DNA of 23,858 bases from a virus (IMGVR_UViG_3300037245_001301:1-23858); one strand, 5' to 3'; numbered from the stretch's first letter, positions 3,859-15,100 are shown. Numbers and translations are program-made. Notes: generated from the letters alone by a model not told the origin.

Positions 3859-4801
3859 GGTTTCGATCTCCAGATTCCAAATGTGGTCTCACAAATTGTT
3901 CAATTAACGCACGAGTCATTTCTTGATGTTGTTTTCGGGTTACTGCTCGCTCTTCATTCTTATCCTCCTTTTTTCCGGCCCTTCTGTTCTTGACCGCGAC
4001 GGGGTCAATAGAAAATACCCAGGCGAGACACGCACGCCAGCCGTCTAGTGCAGTCTTCGCCCCTGCGGCCTTCAGAACAGGCTTTGCGTTCTGGGGCTTC
4101 ACCGCTTCACGCTTCAACACGTTGACGGCTCGCAGGTGGGGTTGCACGACCCCGTCGACCTTGTCTTCTTCATGTACGCGCTGAAGGTACGCCTTGAAAT
4201 CACGCAAGGCGTGCTGAGCACGCTCGACGAACTGTGGCTGCTCTAAGGCGACCGCGTCGTCAACAAACTTCGGCTGCAAGTCCTCTGGCAGGTTTGCCAA
4301 AGCGAGAGCGGCCTGCATTTTGATTTCGCCCTGCTCGACAGGGGTTCGAGCTTCTTCACACAGGCGATTGAGTTGAAGCTGATCGCGAATCCAGCTTTGA
4401 CTCTTGTCGATCAGGTCTGACAGTTGAACAATCGTCAGGCCATCCTCCATGAGAAGCTTCAGTCGCCTGGCGTACTCAAATGTCTGCGTCCTCGGGCGGA
4501 TGGAGTTGAGCTTCAGTTGGATAACGAGAACTTCGTGGTCAGTCATCTCCTTTATCATAACAGGGATTGTGTCCAGGCCATTCTCTCTTGCCACCTCGTA
4601 GCGATGCCAGCCTTCGACGATCTCGTAGTCGTAGCCGATGCTCGGGTCGCACGGCCGCACGAGGATTGGCTGAAGGACACCGTCTTTCCGAACCGATTCA
4701 AGCAGTTCGATGTATTCCGGCGAGTCGCGGCGCACTGGCCGGAGACTGGTCTTCGGCCGCATGATGTGTTGAATCGGGACTTCTTTTTGGTTGCTGCTCA
4801 T
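3848..4801 (-). CDS. ParB/Spo0J-like DNA-binding protein
   Basis: This 317-aa protein has the ParB N-terminal nucleotide-binding fold: the start VPIQHIMRP, then SVRKDGVLQPILVRP (36-50) and YEIVEGWHRYEVARENG (59-75). EGWHR takes the place of the usual GERR/GHRR phosphate-binding motif. Residues 115-160 (LTIVQLSDLIDKSQSWIRDQ) form the helix-turn-helix expected to bind a parS-like site. The C-terminal third is Lys/Arg-rich (RRAGKKEDKNEER at about 276-288). ParB-like proteins in phages act in partition, in transcription control or as nucleases. No ParA lies in the window, so regulation or replication is as likely as partition. The ATG overlaps the upstream stop as TAATG. The dyad-rich intergenic region about 300 bp upstream is a candidate target. 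Confidence 0.85.
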   Translation of the reverse strand: MSSNQKEVPIQHIMRPKTSLRPVRRDSPEYIELLESVRKDGVLQPILVRPCDPSIGYDYEIVEGWHRYEVARENGLDTIPVMIKEMTDHEVLVIQLKLNSIRPRTQTFEYARRLKLLMEDGLTIVQLSDLIDKSQSWIRDQLQLNRLCEEARTPVEQGEIKMQAALALANLPEDLQPKFVDDAVALEQPQFVERAQHALRDFKAYLQRVHEEDKVDGVVQPHLRAVNVLKREAVKPQNAKPVLKAAGAKTALDGWRACLAWVFSIDPVAVKNRRAGKKEDKNEERAVTRKQHQEMTRALIEQFVRPHLESGDRNHVE

Positions 4802-5073
4802 TACTCTATATTATAGGAGTTTTGAAAGACTTTCGGCCGCCCGCTCCCGGCCGCCGCATCAAATGCCCGAGACTGTTTGTTGATCATATCTTGTTCGTGG
4901 CGCCCGGCCAAAACCAGTAAAGCTCTAAGAGTCTCCCGGCCCACAACCGTGGGAGGGACTGGAAGCTTGACAAAAGCGGTGCCGTGCCTGAAACAGATGT
5001 CCGCATCAACCGGCTCACAACGATCATCGAGTGCATTGAGCTTCACAGTTATCATATCAAGCGTCTTACTCAT
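4801..5073 (-). CDS. Hypothetical 90-aa phage protein, first gene of leftward operon
   Basis: I do not recognise this small protein. It begins MSKTLDMITVKLNALDD, has a beta-like centre (ICFRHGTAFVKLPVPPTVVG), a helix (RETLRALLVLAGRHEQDM) and a polar end with RPKVFQNS. I chose the ATG at 5073 because GGAG lies nine bases upstream. An in-frame ATG at 5109 would add 12 residues and lies only about 13 bases from the predicted transcription start. It is the first gene read from the leftward promoter at 5129-5156, so it may be an early regulator, but no DNA-binding motif is visible. Its stop is coupled to the ParB-like gene. Confidence 0.65.
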   Translation of the reverse strand: MSKTLDMITVKLNALDDRCEPVDADICFRHGTAFVKLPVPPTVVGRETLRALLVLAGRHEQDMINKQSRAFDAAAGSGRPKVFQNSYNIE

Positions 5074-5128
5074 TTGAATCTGCTCCAGGAGTCGCTTCGT
5101 GTCACACATTCTTCATTGCTCTACCTAT

Positions 5129-5156
5129 ATTGTAGCAACTTTCGTCGATTCGGCAA
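5129..5156 (-). promoter_or_regulatory. Leftward sigma70-like promoter
   Basis: On the minus strand a -35 TTGCCG (5156-5151) and a -10 TACAAT (5134-5129) are separated by 16 bases, with transcription expected to start near 5122. The promoter is an inverted near-copy of the rightward one at 5566-5593: over 33 bases both share GGTTGCCGAA and TTGCTACAATATA. It would drive the leftward replication operon. Confidence 0.75.
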
Positions 5157-5210
5157 CCACAATCCGGCAAATGCCGAGTTTTTCCAGGTGGGTCGGGCAT
5201 GCCGAAACCT

Positions 5211-5306
5211 GCGCCGGAGGGCGGAGCTTCGGAAGACCCCCTAGTGAAATCCTTGCGACTAACAAGGATTTCTCACATACCTCTTTTGTAGCTCCGGCTC
5301 CGGCGC
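5211..5306. repeat. Nested inverted repeats near the leftward promoter
   Basis: GCGCCGGAG followed by CGGAGCT (5211-5228) is mirrored at 5290-5306 with one small indel. Inside lies a stem GAAATCCTTG (5246-5255) and CAAGGATTTC (5263-5272) with a seven-base loop. Short dyads at 5165-5176 and 5196-5203 lie just outside. An alternative pairing joins CTAGTGA (5241-5247) with 5314-5320. No coding frame is credible here. Confidence 0.75.
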
Positions 5307-5357
5307 TTGAAAATCACTAGTTGTAAAGTGTTGTAGGATAACAGTTTAAGATACCTG

Positions 5358-5528
5358 CCACCCACCGGAGGGAGCGGAATGGCGCGCGCCGTTCCGCCCC
5401 CTATCATGGGGTATTACAAGCAAAGTGAGGGAGGGACGAACCCCGAAGGAGTGGCCCACCCGCCCGCCCATTTGGGTGGTCGACCGCCGGAAGCTCCGGC
5501 GCCATTCCGGGATACCTCCGGTGGGTGG
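5358..5528. repeat. Long interrupted inverted repeat (25 paired bases, about 113-bp loop)
   Basis: The outer arms CCACCCACCGGAGG (5358-5371) and CCTCCGGTGGGTGG (5515-5528) are exact complements. The inner arms CGGAATGGCGC (5375-5385) and GCGCCATTCCG (5499-5509) are also exact, with only three and five unpaired bases between inner and outer arms. The loop holds further dyads, including GCCGGA/TCCGGC at 5486-5500. Confidence 0.9.
5374..5397. repeat. 24-bp near-perfect palindrome
   Basis: The two 12-base halves, GCGGAATGGCGC and GCGCCGTTCCGC, are complementary except for one pair (t5380 with g5391), with no loop. It overlaps the left arm of the larger inverted repeat, so the two structures are alternatives. 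A dimeric DNA-binding protein site is plausible. Confidence 0.85.
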
Positions 5529-5555
5529 GAAGCCATAGAAATTCACCTTGTGCCG

Positions 5556-5583
5556 GTTTTCATGGTTGCCGAACCATGAAAAC
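5556..5583. promoter_or_regulatory. Operator-like 12-bp perfect dyad over the rightward -35
   Basis: GTTTTCATGGTT and AACCATGAAAAC flank GCCG. The dyad covers the -35 box (5566-5571) and much of the spacer, where a bound dimer would block RNA polymerase. The leftward promoter has only a degenerate form of this dyad, so the two promoters may respond differently. Confidence 0.75.
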
Positions 5584-5593
5584 TTGCTACAAT
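5566..5593 (+). promoter_or_regulatory. Rightward sigma70-like promoter
   Basis: The -35 TTGCCG (5566-5571) matches TTGACA at four positions. The -10 TACAAT (5588-5593) matches TATAAT at five. The spacer is 16 bases. Transcription should start near 5600, 29 bases before the primase-helicase ATG. It is mirrored by the leftward promoter at 5129-5156. Confidence 0.78.
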
Positions 5594-5628
5594 ATAAGCA
5601 GACACTTCGAGAATCGGACGGAGCTTGC

Positions 5629-8391
5629 ATGCGCAACACCTGCACGACGGAGGCGTACAAAGCCTTCTACGACAATATACTGTCGAAACAGCACAACCAC
5701 CCTGAGCTTATAGGGCGGTGGGGTGCCGACCCTGGCCGGTTCGAGACACAGATAATGTGTCGAAAGGCTGGCGTCAAGCTTGACAATGGGAAGTTCGAGC
5801 AAGACGGCGAGATCTTCGGCCCGCATCGCTGGCCGTATGACCCCGCCGGACAGCCCAACTACTCTGACCCGTCTATTCCCTATGTCGTCGAGACCCGGAT
5901 GAAGTGCATTGGCACAACATGGTGGGACTGGAAGAATCAGAAGACCATCGGGCTCGGCTACGACTTCGACAGTATTATAGGGCATGCGAAAGGTGTCGGT
6001 GTCTCCGATCAGGAACTTGCCAAGCTGGACGGGATCGACGTGGCCTGGCTAGAAGTCATCCGCTCAACTCGTGGTGCGGGTCGGCACATCTATATCTGGT
6101 TCGATGAGAACGACGCCCCGACGACGGTGAATCATACCGAGCATGCCGCGATCGCACGGGCGTTCATTCCGCTTATCGCCCAGGCCACTGATCTTGACAT
6201 CGAAGCAAGTGTTGACGTGTGCGGGGGCGTGATGTGGATTCACCACGAGAACGCCAACGCCGAGAACCAAGGCTACGCCCAAGTCAAACCAGCGACACAA
6301 ACTCTGACTGCCGCGCATGTCCCACCTAGCTGGCGAGATCATCTCGAAGTCGTCTCCGGCAGCAGAGCCCGAGTGCGTGTCCAGGGATGGGCCACCGACG
6401 GTACACCAGTGGATGATGATGACGTCCTCGACGAAATGACTCAGGCCGTCGCCAAGGTGCCGCTCGACGAAGGGCACCTGAAGATGTTAGAAGACCTTGA
6501 GTCCACCGGGCACACCAGCCTGTGGGTGTCCGACCACCACCTGTGGCAAGGGCACACCGCTGGCATCAAGGTGATCTTCGACGAGTGGGCTGAGCGAGGC
6601 CACCCGATGAAAGGCCTGTTCGATACCAACTCGATAGACTCCGATCCAGGTAAGCCGAACTGTTTCATGCGACCGCGACCTGATGGGGCGTGGGACGTGT
6701 ACCGGTTTGGTGAGGGAACGGACGAACATCCAATGTGGGATACGCAAGGCAAGTGGACCCACACCACCCTCAACTTTCCCCCTACCATTCGTCAGATCTG
6801 CCTGGCGTGTGATGGGTATGAAGGGACGGAGGAGAAGCAGGGCTATCTCTTTGAGACGGTCGAGGACTTGAAGAGGGCGTTGAAGATTCTCAAGTCCGAT
6901 GCCCTAGTGCCAGAGAAGGCTGTCGATCGCGGGCTATCACTGTACGTCAACGACCGTGACAAGGTTGTCATGGTCATCGAGAAGAAGAGAAGTGACAGCA
7001 AGGCCGACTTCCCTCGGTTCGTCAAGACGCCCAAAGGTTGGGAGCGTTGGCTCGACGGTGCGATAAGCACGTCCGACAACGAAGTGAAGGATCAGGCGAT
7101 CTGGTCTGACCTTGACGAGAAGATCCGAGCACTGAAGACGGAGTCCACCTCTGGGGCTCAGTTCGACTCGTGGGTACTCAAGGACAACGACAAGAAGTGG
7201 ACTAGGCACCCGCGTGAAAACGTCAGTGCGTTCCTCGCGCAGGAAGGCTTTGACAAACCCGCCCCGATTCTTGGGGGTGCAGTTTTCAAATCTTGGCTAC
7301 TAACCAACGAGCCATTCATGCCAGAGTATCCGGGCGGGAGACAATGGAACAGGAACGCTGCTCAGTTTATCTACGCTCCGGTGGTGTTGGGAGAAAACGA
7401 ATCTCCGGTTCACCCGACATGGGACCGAGTGATGGGACACTGTGGTGTCGAACTGAACGAGTACATCCCCGAGTTGCCTTGGTGCAAGAACTGGGGCATC
7501 ACTACCGGCGGCGACTACATGACCGCGTGGGTTGCCTGCATGTTGCAGAACCCACACGGCAAACTTCCCTACCTCTTCATGTACGGCCCACAGAACAGTG
7601 GCAAGTCAAGTTTCTATGAGGCCATCGACCTTCTCATGACGCCGGGCAGTATGGAGCGGGCGGACAAGGCGCTGACTTCGGACCAAGGCTACAATGGCGA
7701 GTTGGAAGGCGTGGTGCTGGCGGTGATCGACGAAATCGACATCGCCAGGGCGGGGGCGACGGCATACAACCGGATCAAGGACTGGGTCACCGGCCTAACT
7801 TTCTGCTTGCACGCCAAGTACGGGCAGCCGAGGACCATCCCGAACACCTTGCACTTCGTTCAGTTGTCAAACACCCGGCGGGCCCTCCCTGTGCTGCCGG
7901 GCGACACGCGGATCACGGCGATGAATGTGCCGCTGCCTGAAGAGGAAATCCCGAAGGACAGGCTATTCGATCTCCTGCGGCAAGAAGCCCCCCACTTCAT
8001 GTACACGCTGATGAATTATGAGAGGCAAGAGGCGTCAGGCCGCATGATGTTGCCCGTGATAGAAACTCAAGGCAAGCACGACGCTGCTGCCGACAACGTC
8101 GATGAACTTGAACAGTTCATCGCCGATCGCTGCTATGAGATCCCTGGCGTGGCCATCAGGTTCTCTGACTTCGTCAAAGCGTTCCAGGCCTCGCTGGAAG
8201 TTTTCCAGCAGGGTGAATGGAAGGAACGTATGATTCGTGCGGTCGTATCTGAGAAGCTGATGTACGGAAAATCGCGGAAACACAACCAAGCGATCATAGG
8301 AAACCTGTCGTTAGATTCAACTATTCAACCGAGCACGCCGTTCATCAAGGATGGCCAATTCCTAATGCGAGAGGACGACTTAAATGAGTGA
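5629..8391 (+). CDS. Primase-polymerase and superfamily 3 helicase fusion (phage D5/P4-type replicase)
   Basis: This 920-aa protein combines primer synthesis and DNA unwinding. The N-terminal 250 residues show archaeo-eukaryotic primase motifs: LGYDFDS (109-115) for the metal-binding acids, STRGAGRHIYIWF (146-158) for the nucleotide-binding S/GxH motif, and a following DLDIEASVDV segment. Residues 470-640 resemble a D5-N linker. The helicase follows: Walker A GPQNSGKSS (653-661), Walker B VVLAVIDEID (695-704), then a motif C region HFVQLSNTRRALPV with the downstream arginine segment PGDTRI. This is the DUF5906-type SF3 layout. I chose the ATG at 5629 for its GGAG five bases upstream and its place after the promoter; the frame is open further up but lacks a site. 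It ends in an eight-base overlap with the next gene. It probably starts phage DNA replication at the nearby dyad region. Confidence 0.88.
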   Translation: MRNTCTTEAYKAFYDNILSKQHNHPELIGRWGADPGRFETQIMCRKAGVKLDNGKFEQDGEIFGPHRWPYDPAGQPNYSDPSIPYVVETRMKCIGTTWWDWKNQKTIGLGYDFDSIIGHAKGVGVSDQELAKLDGIDVAWLEVIRSTRGAGRHIYIWFDENDAPTTVNHTEHAAIARAFIPLIAQATDLDIEASVDVCGGVMWIHHENANAENQGYAQVKPATQTLTAAHVPPSWRDHLEVVSGSRARVRVQGWATDGTPVDDDDVLDEMTQAVAKVPLDEGHLKMLEDLESTGHTSLWVSDHHLWQGHTAGIKVIFDEWAERGHPMKGLFDTNSIDSDPGKPNCFMRPRPDGAWDVYRFGEGTDEHPMWDTQGKWTHTTLNFPPTIRQICLACDGYEGTEEKQGYLFETVEDLKRALKILKSDALVPEKAVDRGLSLYVNDRDKVVMVIEKKRSDSKADFPRFVKTPKGWERWLDGAISTSDNEVKDQAIWSDLDEKIRALKTESTSGAQFDSWVLKDNDKKWTRHPRENVSAFLAQEGFDKPAPILGGAVFKSWLLTNEPFMPEYPGGRQWNRNAAQFIYAPVVLGENESPVHPTWDRVMGHCGVELNEYIPELPWCKNWGITTGGDYMTAWVACMLQNPHGKLPYLFMYGPQNSGKSSFYEAIDLLMTPGSMERADKALTSDQGYNGELEGVVLAVIDEIDIARAGATAYNRIKDWVTGLTFCLHAKYGQPRTIPNTLHFVQLSNTRRALPVLPGDTRITAMNVPLPEEEIPKDRLFDLLRQEAPHFMYTLMNYERQEASGRMMLPVIETQGKHDAAADNVDELEQFIADRCYEIPGVAIRFSDFVKAFQASLEVFQQGEWKERMIRAVVSEKLMYGKSRKHNQAIIGNLSLDSTIQPSTPFIKDGQFLMREDDLNE

Positions 8392-9916
8392 AGCCCTACG
8401 ATTCAACAGCGACAAACCCATGATGGCTTACTTCATGCGGAGCTTTCCCAAGATGACCGAGGCGGTGGCCCGCGTGAAAGAGATGGGTGCCATCAAGTAC
8501 AACGATGGCAACTGGAAACTCGGCAACAAGCCGGACGATGAGTATTGGAACTCAATGTTCCGCCACCTGACCTACATCTTCGGCGGAGAGGACTACGATA
8601 AGGACACCGGCTGTCTGCACATCGCCCATGCGGTGTGGAACCTGTGTGCTCTGCTCGAACTCAACTACCCCGACCTGCCCGCTCGCGACGAGGAGATCTG
8701 GGCCGACCGGGCTGTCCACTGGGCAGAGGAGAAGCGGAAGCGGGAGGCCAAGGAGACAGGCTCTTTCAGTGAGGGTGTACTTGTGTCAGACGATAAACCT
8801 CCGCTGCGATGGGACGATATGGACTACCAGACGCAGGCAGACATGATCGCGTCTGCTCAGAATGCGGTGGACCGAACACTGGAGGCCTCAGAGAAGAAGC
8901 GGAAGAAGTACGAGGCCATCGAGGACGCCGAAGGGTTCGGGGCCGCCTGGGCTGCTTACTTGATAGAGGAAGAGGAGGAGAAGCGGAAGCGGGAGGCCGG
9001 GGGGAGGGAGAATCCGAGATTCGTTGGGGATGTTCTCGATATGTTGTTTGGCCCCGGAATAGATGTGCCTTCGACACCTTGGGTTGTTGACGCTGAGTGC
9101 CCAATGTGTGACTCCAACGTCATTCAGCGAGGAAAGCACGGCCTGGAGTGTGAGTGCGGCGAGATCTTTGAGGCTCCCATTGTCCCCGAGAACCCCGAGA
9201 ACGCCGACGCCGACGAGATTCCGCAGTTCACCAAGATGCCAAAGTTTGCCATCCCGGATGGCTTTAGTCCGGTGTTCTCCCAATTTGTGCGCAAAATAGC
9301 CACTCGCGACGACGAGGTCCGGTCCCAGTACGAGGCTCATTGTGCAGAAGAGAAACGGAAGGCCAACGCCGCCTTCGACGCTACCCCCTATACTACCTTC
9401 ATCATCCACCCTGGGGGGCTCGTGTCGTACGTTGATGAGTGCCCAATGTGTGGCTCTGGCAACGTCGTGCTAGAGGGAGCGGGCGGTATGGTGTGTGAGT
9501 GTGGCGAGATCTTTGGAGTTCCCATCGTCGCCGAGAACGAGACCACTGAGGCTCCACAGCGGAACGACGCTACCGACGCTGCCATATACGCTGCGGGCGC
9601 CGCTGACGCCGTTGACGCTTCCGCCTATGTTGCCGCCGTCGTCGAACGAATTCTGAAAGACCTGTTACTTGTGGAATGCCCAATGTGTGGCTCCAACCTC
9701 GTGTGCAAAGGAGTGTACGGCCGGGAGTGCCGTGAATGTGGCGAGATCTTTGAGGTTCCCATCGTCGCCGAGAACGCCGTCTCCAACGCCGCTACCCCTG
9801 AGTCGGCTCCCATCCCCAAGTTCATCATCAAGGATGCCGATCGCAGCCCAGTGTTCACCGCGTTTGTGGAAGAATACTTCTATGCACCATTGAGGAGGTC
9901 CCATGGAATACGATGA
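8384..9916 (+). CDS. DUF5664-like dATP/dGTP diphosphohydrolase domain fused to three zinc-ribbon repeats
   Basis: Residues 1-105 match the dATP/dGTP diphosphohydrolase N-terminal family seen in phages (RFNSDKPMMAYF at 6-17; GAIKYNDGNWKLG at 35-47; FRHLTYIFGGEDYDKDTGCLHIAHAVWNL at 59-87), which is thought to hydrolyse purine dNTPs and so shape nucleotide pools. The remaining 400 residues are unusual. They are a charged, helical linker with repeated EEKRKREA followed by three zinc ribbons (Cys 239/242/256/258, 353/356 and partners, 432/435 and partners). Each has the pattern ECPMC-S, then CGEIF, then PIV-EN. A second repeated element, PKF-I-D-SPVF-FV, occurs before ribbon 2 and after ribbon 3. 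DNA similarity between copies indicates recent duplication. Family members are normally far shorter. The role of the ribbons is unknown; nucleic acid or protein tethering is a guess. Confidence 0.8.
   Translation: MSEALRFNSDKPMMAYFMRSFPKMTEAVARVKEMGAIKYNDGNWKLGNKPDDEYWNSMFRHLTYIFGGEDYDKDTGCLHIAHAVWNLCALLELNYPDLPARDEEIWADRAVHWAEEKRKREAKETGSFSEGVLVSDDKPPLRWDDMDYQTQADMIASAQNAVDRTLEASEKKRKKYEAIEDAEGFGAAWAAYLIEEEEEKRKREAGGRENPRFVGDVLDMLFGPGIDVPSTPWVVDAECPMCDSNVIQRGKHGLECECGEIFEAPIVPENPENADADEIPQFTKMPKFAIPDGFSPVFSQFVRKIATRDDEVRSQYEAHCAEEKRKANAAFDATPYTTFIIHPGGLVSYVDECPMCGSGNVVLEGAGGMVCECGEIFGVPIVAENETTEAPQRNDATDAAIYAAGAADAVDASAYVAAVVERILKDLLLVECPMCGSNLVCKGVYGRECRECGEIFEVPIVAENAVSNAATPESAPIPKFIIKDADRSPVFTAFVEEYFYAPLRRSHGIR
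8726..8749 (+). repeat. 24-bp perfect direct repeat, copy 1
   Basis: It is identical to 8975-8998, 249 bp (83 codons) downstream in the same frame, encoding EEKRKREA in the linker of the diphosphohydrolase-zinc ribbon protein. A diverged third copy lies near 9347. It marks the internal duplications of this gene. Confidence 0.92.
8975..8998 (+). repeat. 24-bp perfect direct repeat, copy 2
   Basis: This is the partner of 8726-8749. The in-frame spacing shows that the duplication kept the reading frame. Confidence 0.92.
9092..9205 (+). repeat. Zinc-ribbon repeat unit 1
   Basis: This unit encodes AECPMCDSNV to PIVPEN (residues 237-274). It matches units at 9434-9541 and 9671-9778 at DNA level, sharing gagtgcccaatgtgtg at its start and gcgagatcttt near its end. 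A diverged start of the same unit lies in the next gene near 9924. Confidence 0.85.
9434..9541 (+). repeat. Zinc-ribbon repeat unit 2
   Basis: This unit encodes DECPMCGSGN to PIVAEN (from residue 351), with Cys pairs ECPMC and CECG. Its DNA is close to units 1 and 3. Confidence 0.85.
9671..9778 (+). repeat. Zinc-ribbon repeat unit 3
   Basis: This unit encodes VECPMCGSNL to PIVAEN (from residue 430). Its final 40 bases are almost identical to those of unit 2. It carries an extra Cys in CRECG and in LVCKG. Confidence 0.85.
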
Positions 9917-10283
9917 GAAAATTGAATGCCCGTTGTGTGGATGGCACATAATAATGGAAGGGGCTTGCGGCATGGAAAGCGACAACTGGATCGAGTGCCG
10001 GGGAGTCTACGGCATGCACTGTCTCAGGTGTCATGAGATATTTGATGTTCCCATCGGCCCCGAGGACCGCCCGATACGTGAGACGTTTACCGGGCATGAT
10101 GGCTTCCCTGCTGAGTTGTTCCCTGAACGCAGGGGCACCCCGCCGTCGCCCATAATTGGAGAGGTAGACATCGATTGTTTGGCGTGCGGTGCCCAGCCTG
10201 TTGGGCTAAGAGAAGACGGCCTCTGTAAATGTGAATGCGGAGAACTCTTCGGGGCCATGCACAAGCCGCTGGAGGACAAATGA
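9903..10283 (+). CDS. Small protein with two zinc ribbons, diverged from the upstream repeat array
   Basis: This 126-aa protein begins MEYDEKIECPLCGW, matching the ribbon units of the preceding gene, and continues with GVYGMHCLRCHEIFDVPI, as in unit 3. An extra stretch of about 15 residues with two further Cys (C22, C32) interrupts the ribbon, as if parts of two units had fused. A second ribbon uses C92, C95, C108, C110 and C112 (DCLACGAQP, CKCECGELF). It has no enzyme domain. A near-ideal AGGAGG lies four bases before the ATG, and the ATG overlaps the upstream gene by 14 bases. It may have split from the array by duplication. It could be a metal-binding adaptor; the function is unknown. Confidence 0.75.
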   Translation: MEYDEKIECPLCGWHIIMEGACGMESDNWIECRGVYGMHCLRCHEIFDVPIGPEDRPIRETFTGHDGFPAELFPERRGTPPSPIIGEVDIDCLACGAQPVGLREDGLCKCECGELFGAMHKPLEDK

Positions 10284-10888
10284 TGGGAGGGCTACAAAGT
10301 TTGTGGGGCCACACCCTGTGCGCAGTGGATGTGGAGACAACCGGCACGCTGCCTGGATGGCATGAGATCATTCAGATCGCGGTGCTGCCACTCAACCAGC
10401 ACCTCGAACCGGACCCGGAGAAGAAGTTCTTCTACATGAACATCTATCCGGACTATCCGGAAAGAATAGACCCGGCGGCCACGCGGAAGCATGGCATCAC
10501 GTTAGAGGTGCTGGAGGGTTGCCCCTCCCAGGACCAGTCGATTGAACTGTTCCATGAGTGGTTCCAGAAGCTCGGCCTGCCGGACAAAAAGCGAGTGGTG
10601 CCCCTGGCCCACAACTGGGGCTTTGAGCGTTCGATGCTCATACCCTGGCTTGGTCAGGAGGGGTTCAATGAGTTGTTTCAATCGACGGCCCGAGACACAA
10701 TGACGTTGGCATCCAGCATCGACGACCTGTATGCGTGGCATGGCAGGAAGCCGCCCTTCGGCTTCGTCAACCTCGGGAACATGTGCAAGAAGTTCGACAT
10801 CGAACTAGACAACGCACACGACGCCCTAGCCGATTGCGTCGCGACAGCGAAGCTGTACGCATCGATCATGCGGTTTCTTTACGGGTAG
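10280..10888 (+). CDS. DEDDh-family 3'-5' exonuclease (DNA polymerase III epsilon-like)
   Basis: This 202-aa enzyme has the three exonuclease motifs: ExoI CAVDVETTG (14-22, acids D17 and E19), ExoII PLAHNWGFERSML (108-120) and ExoIII AHDALADCVATAKLY (179-193, H180 and D185). These remove nucleotides from DNA or RNA 3' ends using two metal ions. In ExoII the usual Asp after Phe is Glu (E116), a change that may lower or alter activity. The ATG at 10280 overlaps the preceding stop as ATGA and has GGAGG four bases upstream; the adjacent second ATG is equally possible. No DNA polymerase lies in the window, so it is probably a free-standing proofreading or processing nuclease. Its end overlaps a small gene on the other strand. 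Confidence 0.88.
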   Translation: MMGGLQSLWGHTLCAVDVETTGTLPGWHEIIQIAVLPLNQHLEPDPEKKFFYMNIYPDYPERIDPAATRKHGITLEVLEGCPSQDQSIELFHEWFQKLGLPDKKRVVPLAHNWGFERSMLIPWLGQEGFNELFQSTARDTMTLASSIDDLYAWHGRKPPFGFVNLGNMCKKFDIELDNAHDALADCVATAKLYASIMRFLYG

Positions 10889-11015
10889 CCGCTTTCTTCG
10901 CCGCCCTCATCGCCTCGCGCTTCCGTTTTCGGATGGAGCCGCGAGGCGGTCTCTTTGGGCTGGCCTCTATGTTACGCTTCCCGTTCCTACATTTGCGGCA
11001 TTTACTCTTCGCCAT
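10866..11015 (-). CDS. Small 49-aa basic CxxC protein
   Basis: This short frame was found by reading the minus strand. It begins MAKSKCRKCRNGKRN and continues as an Arg/Lys-rich chain with two helix-like runs (RKRKREAMRAAKKAATRK). One CxxC pair (C6, C9) could bind metal as a dimer. The ATG lies 14 bases inside the end of the SPFH gene. The 3' end overlaps the exonuclease gene on the other strand by 23 bases. No strong Shine-Dalgarno is seen. It may bind nucleic acid. It fills the gap exactly, which supports it, but it could be chance. Confidence 0.55.
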   Translation of the reverse strand: MAKSKCRKCRNGKRNIEASPKRPPRGSIRKRKREAMRAAKKAATRKETA

Positions 11016-11559
11016 AGTTCACCTTGATGTCGATCCCAGAGTGGTGCCAATTGCGTGTCGAAGAAAAGGCGCATAGTCCTGCTCGCTCAACGTACACGCC
11101 ATACTTCCGCAATTGCTTGCGGCACTTCTCTGTGATCTCTTTCTCGATAACGCCACTCAAGCCAGCCAGGAGTTCCTCGTGTGTGTGCGAGATAATAACG
11201 TCAGCAAGCACCGCCTGGACGATGTCTTGAGCGGTGTTCTCTGGCGACCAGTTCTGCTTGCCGATCGCCCGCACGACGTCATTGACGTTGTAGACAACAA
11301 CGCCACCCGCCACGACCTCGACGCCGTCGTTCGTCTGTAGCGGTTCGTGAGGTGTGTTGAATGACTGCCTCGCTATCACGATGATTTCGACATCTGAGAT
11401 GGCGGGCCAATAGCAGCGGATGCCAGGCTTCACTTCCTTCGGCTCCAGCCATAGACTCCACTTGACCCCTCCCTCGGTGGCACGGACTATGATCCGACGC
11501 GGGACAAACTGGAGTAAGGCCTCGAATATCTGACCAAGCCAAGCGAATGCGGCCTCCAT
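11002..11559 (-). CDS. Phage SPFH/band-7 (stomatin/prohibitin-like) protein
   Basis: This 185-aa protein looks like an SPFH domain. It has an amphipathic hydrophobic start (MEAAFAWLGQIFEALLQFVP) that could lie on a membrane and a beta-strand region with IRCYWPAISDVEIIVIARQS. Then come QTNDGVEVVAGGVVVYNV (75-92), the classic strand pair after 'T.D', helices through VLADVIISHTHEELLAG, and the closing LRKYGVYVERAGLCAFS. SPFH proteins build membrane-bound rings and scaffolds. Phage members are known but their role is unclear; membrane or lysis-related scaffolding is a guess. I chose the ATG at 11559 because it joins the upstream stop as TAATG with AGGAG eight bases before; the ATG at 11565 sits too close to that site. 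Confidence 0.75.
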   Translation of the reverse strand: MEAAFAWLGQIFEALLQFVPRRIIVRATEGGVKWSLWLEPKEVKPGIRCYWPAISDVEIIVIARQSFNTPHEPLQTNDGVEVVAGGVVVYNVNDVVRAIGKQNWSPENTAQDIVQAVLADVIISHTHEELLAGLSGVIEKEITEKCRKQLRKYGVYVERAGLCAFSSTRNWHHSGIDIKVNYGEE

Positions 11560-12140
11560 TACCATTTCTCCTGTGGGCAGTGCTCGGAACCCATCCGAAG
11601 CTTGTTAAAGATGGCGATCGCGCCTTCAGAGACGGCACACCCACAGCCTTTACATCGACTCTTCTTGGAGTCAAACCACGAGCACGCTTTGCAGTGACCG
11701 TTGAGAAGCTCTTTCACTTCCTCATCCGACCTCTTCGGCCTGCCCGCCTTGTTCCAGCGGATGAGGGCTTCCTTGTAGAACCACGCCTGCATGGAGAGTG
11801 GCGGGTAGTTGACTGCTTCCTCTTCTGTCGCCGGAGCTTCCCGCTCGAATTCCGACATGTCAAGCCCGGCGTCCTCAACCATCTCTCGAATCTCTTCGTC
11901 TTTGATGTTGAGCATCTCCTCAGTCTGAATGACGCTCGCATTATTCTTGGCAGGAGCCGGAGAGCGATTGCGATGGGCGGGGCACGGGCTTTTATGCTTC
12001 ACCACGCGCCCAGGACACCTGGAGCAGATGGCTTCGTCTACGACGCTGCCCATGAAGCTACATTTGTTGTTCATGCAACGGAATCGAACTTCGTTGCTCG
12101 GTCTCTTGACGACCTTCTGCCGCTTCTTACAAGGTTTCAT
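11559..12140 (-). CDS. Zinc-binding phage protein with C-terminal CxxC/CGC/HCP-KW domain
   Basis: This 193-aa protein has two cysteine clusters. The N-terminal one (C22, C27, C39, C42, near C53) is flanked by a basic region. The C-terminal domain (residues 148-193) reads HCKACSWFD, CKGCGCAV and MGSEHCPQEKW, with C150, C153, C163, C166, C168 and C188. This closing pattern is typical of small zinc domains near phage tail genes, where it often ends CP-x2-KW. The middle is acidic and helical (NIKDEEIREMVEDAGLDM). A strong AAGGAG lies five to six bases before the ATG. It comes 24 bases after the tail hub gene. Its function is unknown; assembly or host-surface binding are guesses. Confidence 0.75.
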   Translation of the reverse strand: MKPCKKRQKVVKRPSNEVRFRCMNNKCSFMGSVVDEAICSRCPGRVVKHKSPCPAHRNRSPAPAKNNASVIQTEEMLNIKDEEIREMVEDAGLDMSEFEREAPATEEEAVNYPPLSMQAWFYKEALIRWNKAGRPKRSDEEVKELLNGHCKACSWFDSKKSRCKGCGCAVSEGAIAIFNKLRMGSEHCPQEKW

Positions 12141-12164: not shown

Positions 12165-15100
12165 TTAAGGAAGGGGCCCGTCCTCTGGATCGTAGTCAGG
12201 GTATGATGAGCAGGCATACCGCTCGCCGGGCAAGCCAGTATTGGTGCAACAGGCCGGATCATATGGGTAATACTGACAAAAGGTGGGCTCATCGCCAGTC
12301 ATTCCAGTTGGTTGCCCTGTCTCGGGAAGATTCGGGTCACCATCACTAGCCGAGGCGGCCTGAATGGCCTGACAGTCCGCGCCGCCGTTGGTGGTTTCAG
12401 CGTCGTGCTTCCCGGCCGCTGCTTTGACACCGATGACGCCGGTTTCGTGGCAATCCCACAGCCCGCTAACAGCCTTGCCGTATTGTGCCGCCATATATTG
12501 GGCGAACAGTTTTGCTGTGCCTGGTGAGCCGAAAGTGTGACAAGTCGTCCAGATCGGTCCAGTGCATGACGGGCATCCACCATAACACCTACACGGGCCT
12601 CCGCACCTCTGCTGATCCGACCGGTTCCATGCCAGCCCCTGCGAATGTGATGTGTGCCAGGTAACTATGACTTTGTAGGCGCAGCCAATCCAAGCCTCGC
12701 CACATGCGGGAATGTCTGTTTGGATTTGCCCCCCGGCACCGGGATTGCCTTCAGACATCTCATCCTCAGTAGACTGTCTGGCGGCCGACTGGGCGATCTC
12801 CTTGGCCACAAACTCAGGCGGCTTCTCGTTGAAGTTCAAGTAGTCGCTCAACTCGCACCGAGGCGCGAGCAGGGTGTCGTCCAGGTCGCTCGGGTGCAGG
12901 TCGCCAGACGAGATGATAATTTGATCCTCTCTGTGAGCCCCTCCAAGCAGGATGTGCCCAACTGGCGGAATGACGGTGAAGTCGTACCCTCCACCGCCGT
13001 GTGTGTCGCCGTCAAGCGGCCAGATCTGATACTGGTTCTGTTGCGACGGCCACGCCCAAAAGTAAGGAGAGTTCTCACCCACCCGCACGGGGGTCCAAAC
13101 AGTGATGTCGATCGTGTAGGCGTCTGGGTTGACGTTCATCGACTCAATGACACACTTGACTGGGGTGCTGTTGAATTGGGCCACATCTATCGTGACAGCG
13201 TCGCCCACATCGAGGTCAATGTGCTTCAGCGGCAACTGGAACTGGAGCATCTTCCACGAGTTGGCCTTGCGGATCAACCAGAAGGTGCCCGACTTCAGGA
13301 TGTTCTCGTAGACGTTGTGGGTGTAGTAATCCCAACCCGATTCGACCGTCCCATACTTGTCGACGTTGTACTTCAGGATGAGCTTTCGCTCAGGTGTTTG
13401 GTCGGCGCGGACGGCCGCGCCGCCGGTTCTCCAATCAATGTTGTGCGTGGTATAGGTGTCCTCCGTCTCGCTGAAACTTTCCTTGAACGTGCCGAACAGG
13501 ATGTCGTCCCCTGACAACGTCCTGACGCTGGTGGGTTCGTACGACAAGTAGCGAATGTAGAGCACACTATTACGCACATAGACCGCACAACGCGACTGGT
13601 ACGCGATGTCGTTGATCAGAGCAAGAACGTCTGGACGATCCAGCAGGTAGAAGTTGCTCGGGTAGTTGGTCAGTAATGCCTTGACACTGGCAAACGACGT
13701 GGAGTCGATGGTCAGATCAGAATACTTGTCGGCCAACCACTCGATGATGTCACATGGGTTTGGGCCGATAGATGAGGTGAAGGAAACGTAAATCTGGTCG
13801 TCCCATCCTTCGGTCTCGTGGGTCACTTGGTCGTAGTAATGAGACAGTGCCTTGTCCATGCCAATCTCTACGACCTGATAGCCATCATAGTCGGTCTCGT
13901 ATACAGTGTAACGATCCTCTTGGACCTCCGTCAAATAGCGAAATCCGTTTGGCGCCTGTCGGTACGCTGCGACTTTGTCAACTGTGCCAGGCAGCAGGGA
14001 GACGATGTAGAGAATTTCCTGCTCACCCTCATAATAGACCTCGGAGCCAGAGGGCGCCCACCAGAATGTGGACTCCTCCATCGCGTCATATTTCTCCCAC
14101 GACTCCTTCGGGCCTCCTACCATTCCAGGCGTGGTGACAAGTGCGGCGTCGCAGGACGCAAACGCCTGCCCTTCCGTTTGATTCGGGACGAACGAGGCCA
14201 CAGTAGTGTCAGGAATCCACGCTCGGTTGCCTGTGAAGAACTCTTGCCCCTCCACTGTCCGGTGGTAGACGCTCTTCGGGTCATAGTTGCCCCCGGCACC
14301 TTGGCGGATGTTGTTTGTGCCTCCATACTGCACACGGCCCTCAACCTGCCCATAGCTCACGCCATTGATCGAGGTACATTCTTGATGATTGAAGGTCGCC
14401 CACTCAGGATGTTGACGCGAGAAGACAGTAAACGTGTTGCCGCTGAACGTGCCGTTGTAGGAGGCTGAGTCAACATAGATCACGAGTCGTGTGTCTTGAG
14501 GAAATGACACGCCGTTGTAGATGTTCAGCGTGGGGTTCTCATAGGAGATCTGCTGCTCGTAGAGATCCTTCATCTTGCAGATTTCGCCAAACCGTCGGTT
14601 CACACACTCCAGGGAGGGGCCAACAGTGTGGACACCCGAATGCTCTCCAGTTGCTTGGACTGCGCACTGAATGTTGACAGCTTGGCATATCCGAGACTCA
14701 ATTGTAAAGTCATGAATACCCGTGCCGTGCTCCAAATAACCTCGGCGTGGCGCCCGCACTTTGACGGCGGGCAGGTGACAAACCTGCCCAAATGCGAGCG
14801 GCCACGCCTTTCCCAGCGCCTCTTCTGGGATGTTCGGGAAATCGCCCTCCTCCATGCTGAACCCCACTTGCCGGGACTCCAACTCGGAGAGAATGTTGAA
14901 TGAGATGGAGCGTTGAGACTCGTCCCATTCGATCGGGGTCACAAGCTGACCCCTGAAAACCAAGATCTTATCTGACGTCGGCAAACCTTTGTGAAGAAGA
15001 TAGACACGTGCGGGGCGTTTGTGGATGTCGACGCTGTTGTAGATTGCTCGGATGCTTCCATCACTATCATCGAGCACAACCCCCATTTCCTGAGAGTCAC

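Follow-up and report, generated by a model that had tools for sequence, protein, structure and literature searches.

Results

We analyzed a complete IMG/VR virus record, IMGVR_UViG_3300037245_001301 (23,858 bases, hereafter the window), which may be a fragment of a virus genome, and found in its replication operon a nucleotide hydrolase gene with a tail of repeated modules. This gene, open reading frame (ORF) A, occupies positions 8384 to 9916 and encodes a protein of 510 amino acids (aa) in which a DUF5664 hydrolase domain is followed by a modular tail with three zinc ribbons (R1 to R3). The adjoining ORF B (9903 to 10283, 126 aa) contains a fourth (R4) and a doubtful fifth (R5). All features are on the + strand unless stated otherwise. 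The coordinates of both genes and the three four-cysteine ribbons in ORF A agreed with an earlier, sequence-only reading of this DNA (the original prediction). The operon begins with a DUF5906 primase-helicase gene (5626 to 8391, enclosing ORF 5548 to 8391; PF19263, E-value of 2.8e-12; PHROG DNA primase, E-value of 2e-19), and ORF B is followed by a DnaQ-type 3'-5' exonuclease gene (10280 to 10888; PF00929, E-value of 6.4e-18; PHROG DNA polymerase exonuclease subunit, E-value of 6e-28). The primase-helicase and ORF A overlap by 8 nucleotides (nt), ORF A and ORF B by 14 nt, and the stop of ORF B and the start of the exonuclease by 4 nt (ATGA). In addition, a Shine-Dalgarno-like site that we read from the sequence, AGGAGG (9893 to 9898), is a perfect match and lies 4 nt 5' of the ORF B ATG. 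Because of these overlaps and this site, the translation of the four genes looks coupled.

The original prediction of one short DUF5664-like domain in ORF A was borne out by a PF18909 match (DUF5664/dGTP_diPhyd_N) at aa 5 to 94 (8396 to 8665), with an E-value of 1.1e-20 and a score of 73.8 bits against a curated cut-off of 27. When the window was aligned with nine relatives, ORF A retained all 25 of the invariant columns of the ten sequences, including KP, KY, NW, RH and H..H..WN. The model of the catalytic domain was all-helical, with a predicted local distance difference test (pLDDT) score of ~80 to 93 across most of the domain. The sole relevant solved structure, the S-2L MazG-like pyrophosphohydrolase 7ody_A, matched weakly (Z of 4.5 over 57 residues, root-mean-square deviation of 4.7) and was tied with unrelated chains; a MazG-like fold of the modeled domain is at best suggested. 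A family member with established enzymology, the DUF5664 protein of Arthrobacter phage Wayne, acts on dATP, dGTP and dUTP and yields the monophosphates (PMC12884076). By homology, ORF A would be a phage deoxynucleoside triphosphate (dNTP) pyrophosphohydrolase of the DUF5664 type. Z-DNA metabolism had also been considered; purZ (PF00709) was absent in 15 records of this phage group, some of which are possibly fragments.

Behind the catalytic domain, the tail of ORF A is assembled from three kinds of repeated module. The first is a helix unit, H1 (8684 to 8752, the ARDEEIWADRAVHWAEEKRKREA region; DNA repeat family D3), which aligned with counterparts in the relatives L004, L007, L008, L031, L032 and L034 to L036 and is the native C-terminal helix of the DUF5664 family. 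Two copies of it follow, H2 (8919 to 8998, D3/D9 direct repeats) and H3 (9300 to 9370, a D3 direct repeat with 71% identity to H1). The repeated EEKRKREA linkers of the original prediction do exist, with EEKRK at 8726, 8975 and 9347, but they are more than linkers, the first copy being this family helix. Since H1 is native to the family, the expansion duplicated a native part along with the ribbons. The second kind is the ribbon itself: R1 (9095 to 9193, CPMC...CEC, cysteine pair at aa 239), R2 (9437 to 9538, CPMC...CEC, aa 353) and R3 (9674 to 9775, CPMC...CREC with classical spacing, aa 432). The third is an F-x-I-x-D module, found as U1 (9236 to 9289, MPKFAIPDGFSPVFSQFV) and U2 (9812 to 9868, IPKFIIKDADRSPVFTAFV); the second repeated element that had been predicted, PKF-I-D-SPVF, was recovered here as PKFxIxD at 9242 and 9818. 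On the other hand, the ribbon DNA, which had been described as near-identical, was only 65 to 75% identical between whole copies over 77 to 79 nt, and only the cysteine-knuckle blocks reached 84 to 94%.

We then assessed the two diverged ribbons claimed for the neighboring gene. R4 (9924 to 10067) was solid: it scored 46.5 bits with a profile built from R1 to R3 only, a score equaled by none of 1000 shuffles, and it carries an internal insertion. R5 (10173 to 10259) was marginal, with 12 bits against the same profile, equally good scores in 2 of 1000 shuffles, and a DNA similarity to the other ribbons no higher than that of shuffles. By eye, the part of R4 in front of the insertion resembles R2 (LCGWHIIMEGACGM versus MCGSGNVVLEGAGGM) and the part behind it resembles R3 (CRGVYGMHCLRCHEIFDVPI versus CKGVYGRECRECGEIFEVPI), and R3 DNA matched 9991 to 10071. 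Since its front is R2-like and its back R3-like, R4 is apparently chimeric, which suggests unequal recombination between repeats. As to a simple frameshift origin of ORF B from ORF A, the DNA similarity between 9236 to 9320 and 9812 to 9901 extends to the ORF B start, with gaps that do not amount to a single clean frame change.

Four ligand-type cysteines were aligned and invariant in all five copies within the locus, which bears on the cysteine conservation that the original prediction had asked for in homologs. R3 and R4 have two C-x2-C knuckles, and in R1, R2 and R5 the second knuckle is C-x-C. Among R1 to R3, the proportion of synonymous differences (pS) was uniform, at 0.35 in the first knuckle, 0.33 in the loop and 0.36 in the second knuckle and tail, while the proportion of nonsynonymous differences (pN) was 0.04, 0.42 and 0.06, respectively, although the numbers are small. 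Because pN runs low, high and low at uniform pS, the knuckles appear to be under purifying constraint and the loop to be free, and the ribbons look functional. With a pS of ~0.35, the copies represent neither an assembly duplication nor a very recent burst. The predicted expansion therefore stands as a duplication in a nucleotide-hydrolase gene whose array crosses into a second, apparently co-translated gene, but the word 'active' does not fit copies so diverged. The same numbers bear on an assembly artefact or a degenerate reading frame. The array is confined to one contig among the sequences searched, which the original prediction had taken as the sign of an artefact; however, the copies differ at about one third of synonymous sites with the knuckles conserved, and the 510-aa frame is intact and tightly fitted into the operon. 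Given this divergence, we regard an artefact as extremely unlikely.

Structure prediction, which the original prediction had proposed for each ribbon, was run for R3 (44 residues, with the other four copies as the alignment) and gave a zinc-ribbon fold in AlphaFold2 with a mean pLDDT of 81. Its top structural neighbors were nearly all zinc ribbons (RPA12, RPB9, TFIIS, TFIIB, eL43, NrdR, MqsA and topoisomerase I). The scores were modest, with a best Z of 4.0 and no Foldseek match with an E-value below 0.001, because the model has only 44 residues. The ribbons are predicted to bind zinc. In sequence searches they gave weak matches to LysW (E-value of 0.008, PDB) and eL43 (E-value of 0.014); kinship with LysW was rejected since the match depends solely on the CPxC knuckles.

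Zinc ribbons often bind nucleic acid, and those of ORF A could do likewise, binding single-stranded DNA or RNA directly in the manner of the topoisomerase I C-terminal ribbons and so anchoring the hydrolase to the fork or transcript. The structural matches of R3 to the topoisomerase I, TFIIS and TFIIB ribbons agree with such a tether, as do the position of ORF A within a replication operon and a variable loop between retained knuckles. However, every ribbon is acidic, with a net charge of -3 to -6 and a pI of 4.05 to 4.72, with one or two aromatic residues in R1 to R3, whereas topoisomerase I ribbons bind single-stranded DNA through a strand-3 aromatic and some basic residues (PMC4678816). Because of this acidity, we consider direct binding to nucleic acid distinctly unlikely, and docking onto a protein would be the likelier role of the ribbons. 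Tethering of the enzyme as such, for which the original prediction had named DNA, RNA polymerase or the replisome, is plausible.

To place the array in context, we compared the locus with relatives, which are uncultivated-phage loci (L numbers) collected by scans with the primase and exonuclease and then with the DUF5664 domain. In 25 relatives the DUF5664 gene lies between the primase-helicase and, where the contig extends, the DnaQ-type exonuclease, and is ribbon-free. In the loci that were read gene by gene, the primase gene came first, then the DUF5664 gene and then the exonuclease gene, and some of these loci had one or two additional small genes; in L018 a different gene occupies the place between primase and exonuclease. 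In L004 and L032-L033, which are among the closest relatives, the exonuclease directly follows a DUF5664 gene of 123 to 138 aa, and this arrangement is a natural 'before' state of the locus. No combination of hydrolase and ribbon array was found in ~40 related genes, a ribbon profile found no ribbons elsewhere in the records of 19 relatives (some of them short fragments), and scans of viral contigs with the whole ORF A protein and with ORF B returned no relative. The sole ribbon-profile match in viral contigs, of 47 codons in L024 (E-value of 0.02), was doubtful and was judged convergent. A DUF5664-domain scan of genome contigs yielded no relative that could be confirmed, and a DUF5664 enzyme with a ribbon array turned up neither in the literature searched nor in our searches of viral contigs, phages and genomes. 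The homologs with different ribbon numbers that the original prediction had looked to thus did not appear in our searches, and without a relative of other ribbon number the gain or loss of ribbons cannot be dated.

The size of ORF A is less exceptional than its content. The statement that such a gene is normally about one fourth as large holds reasonably well for the short relatives (118 to 190 aa) but not for others of 281 to 397 aa, and DUF5664 tails range from ~20 to more than 400 residues with little sequence in common. Among the DUF5664 genes read, it is the ribbon array that is unique, not the possession of a long modular tail. With a domain identity of 74%, L031 belongs to the closest relatives; its gene encodes 397 aa with two FEIK modules and a cysteine cluster, CQGFCPDCTCDDCC. 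Cysteine was not significantly enriched in DUF5664 tails in general (2.0% versus 1.6%, p of 0.15), and the L011 tail had no match in phage records. Separately, the DUF5664 protein of L062 (3872 to 4369) has a single cysteine knuckle at each terminus, an independent gain of zinc-finger-like ends.

The scans also bear on whether ORF A and ORF B have two unrelated roles, the ribbons having originated in a regulator gene of a phage that was taken up between the hydrolase and the exonuclease, with ORF B still a free regulator (resembling the single ribbons of NrdR, MqsA or Lar) and ORF A a fusion. Two observations fit this: ORF B stands apart as a gene with a start signal of its own, and the structural matches include the NrdR and MqsA zinc domains. 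Nevertheless, viral contigs and phage records yielded no free-standing ribbon homolog apart from one doubtful short match, and helix and F-x-I-x-D units, one of them native to the hydrolase, were duplicated together with the ribbons. We therefore rate this origin as very unlikely. In several other loci, the place of ORF B is taken by a small gene of another kind (RRFIAGALCDLIGYLDEL...) (L008 9475 to 9894, L009 11395 to 11994, L010 6069 to 6515, L014 4762 to 4998 and L041 4465 to 4896). L041 also has an HNH-like endonuclease frame between hydrolase and exonuclease (4691 to 5362, CHTCDNPSCCNPYHLWLGT) that is absent from its close relative L042 and is likely a homing-endonuclease insertion.

The F-x-I-x-D module occurs twice in the window tail, twice in L031 (once as FEIKV), and in L005, L011, L012 and L016. 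It was enriched in DUF5664 tails, with 6 occurrences in 2009 residues compared with 11 in 135,033 residues of background ORFs (Fisher p of 1e-7), in a count that left out the L011 tail and used a motif picked after it had been seen. When 19 virus records were searched with a profile, the module turned up in DUF5664 tails only, plus one weak helicase match; a proteome-wide motif like the clamp-binding box was therefore not supported. The carriers belong to three catalytic types by best PHROG, namely 801 (window and L031), 2252 (L011) and 18716 (L005, L012 and L016). While the primase clade of nine phages was well supported (100/99), a single clade for the DUF5664 domains of the same nine phages was rejected (approximately unbiased test, p of 1e-4). 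From these trees and types, it seems that the catalytic domain was exchanged at the locus while the tail motif recurs. Since the domain types swap and the motif nevertheless recurs, the tail may serve a component that belongs to the locus, for instance a replication protein, and the exchange is the strongest hint of this.

A serious rival is that the tail is a near-neutral elaboration, one that tolerates insertions and duplications and whose ribbons fold and are protected from misfolding but have little specific role beyond solubility, oligomerization or metal binding. The wide range of tail lengths with little shared sequence, the ribbon-free loci and the unconstrained ribbon loop would all be expected of it. 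However, the knuckles are strongly conserved at a pS of 0.35, the separate ribbon gene survives with a strong start signal of its own, and F-x-I-x-D has been kept across several lineages. On balance, we find near-neutrality somewhat unlikely.

Further genes of the neighborhood were also noted. A Band 7/SPFH-domain protein (11002 to 11565, - strand; PF01145, E-value of 1.6e-15) adjoins the replication operon. A small basic, cysteine-rich protein with a CKGCGC-type C-terminal motif is encoded 3' of the exonuclease (11559 to 12140, - strand), with a weak match to PHROG 13558, a family of unknown function; this type of protein recurs in L003, also 3' of the exonuclease (12508 to 13263 and 13257 to 13637, both - strand). 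The primase-helicases of L011 (7968 to 11705, 1245 aa) and L034 (294 to 4004, 1236 aa) are interrupted in frame by probable inteins, which have LAGLIDADG and intein-splicing signatures, unlike the primase-helicase of the window, which is without one.

Discussion

Our tentative preference, held with somewhat less than even confidence, is that the ORF A tail is a lineage-specific multivalent docking region through which an enzyme of the nucleotide pool is brought to the replication machinery of the phage. The hydrolase, encoded between primase-helicase and exonuclease, would convert dATP and dGTP, and probably dUTP, to deoxynucleoside monophosphates and pyrophosphate, and its C-terminal tail would be a fast-evolving docking region. 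The tail would have grown through internal duplication of a set made of helix, zinc ribbon and F-x-I-x-D strand-helix, and unequal recombination would have yielded an extra ribbon that now lies in the separate, translationally coupled ORF B. The acidic ribbons may act as zinc-stapled protein-contact modules, so that each ribbon and each F-x-I-x-D peptide contributes one weak contact and together they hold the enzyme at or with phage replication proteins. ORF B could supply ribbons separately or compete for the same partner. Candidate partners are the phage family A polymerase, which was encoded in 8 of 15 records of the phage group, the primase-helicase and the exonuclease. We also considered a more general scheme, in which exchangeable DUF5664 catalytic types are combined with a docking tail (F-x-I-x-D peptides, here with the acidic ribbon array) that brings the resident enzyme, of whatever type, to the replisome, allowing dNTP editing at the fork beside the primase and the proofreading exonuclease. 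We judge this scheme unlikely.

Several points weigh against docking. The ribbon array is known from one assembly, and both the partner and the tethering itself are what we infer. The full-length model of ORF A had low confidence in the tail, with a predicted template modeling score of 0.33. The C-x-C knuckle may weaken zinc binding, which is less certain for R1, R2 and R5 given this spacing. F-x-I-x-D is short and was noticed post hoc. Finally, some relatives are nearly tail-less, so the core role does not require the tail, which could be near-neutral.

If the tail does dock, the phage would place dNTP hydrolysis at its replication machinery via multivalent and quickly evolving contacts, and the number of ribbons would offer a natural way to tune the strength of binding. 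The F-x-I-x-D motif, being common to non-orthologous catalytic domains, offers a concrete bait peptide in the search for the partner. Even without docking, the locus remains a clear example of a phage operon in which tandem repeats have grown and a gene has apparently split, and in which the knuckles show the mark of selection.

The closest known systems are the phage DUF5664/PF18909 dATP/dGTP (dUTP) pyrophosphohydrolases such as that of Wayne, which are likewise phage genes and have the same catalytic domain as ORF A (PMC12884076). A fusion of DUF5664 to DUF550 occurs in Acinetobacter phage SH-Ab 15497. Unlike these enzymes, ORF A has three ribbons as well as repeated modules of the helix and F-x-I-x-D kinds, and a ribbon-only gene lies behind it. 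The ribbon-free DUF5664 genes (L004, L031, L032, L034 and others; 121 to 397 aa in total) share with ORF A the operon position, the C-terminal helix and a catalytic domain of 55 to 74% identity, but they are without a zinc-ribbon array. Bacterial topoisomerase I, alongside which YrdD is named, also consists of an enzyme followed by tandem four-cysteine ribbons, with the general fold seen in R3. However, no sequence kinship to it was shown, and the phage ribbons, which are acidic, show no obvious fitness for single-stranded DNA and are spaced by long helical or disordered stretches. The ribbons of RNA polymerase and its factors (RPB9, RPA12, TFIIS and TFIIB), eL43 and LysW share the R3 fold, a generic likeness from which we draw no functional conclusion. 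Both parts of ORF A, the DUF5664 enzyme and the zinc ribbons, are therefore of known kinds, and what is new, among the sequences and literature searched, is their combination.

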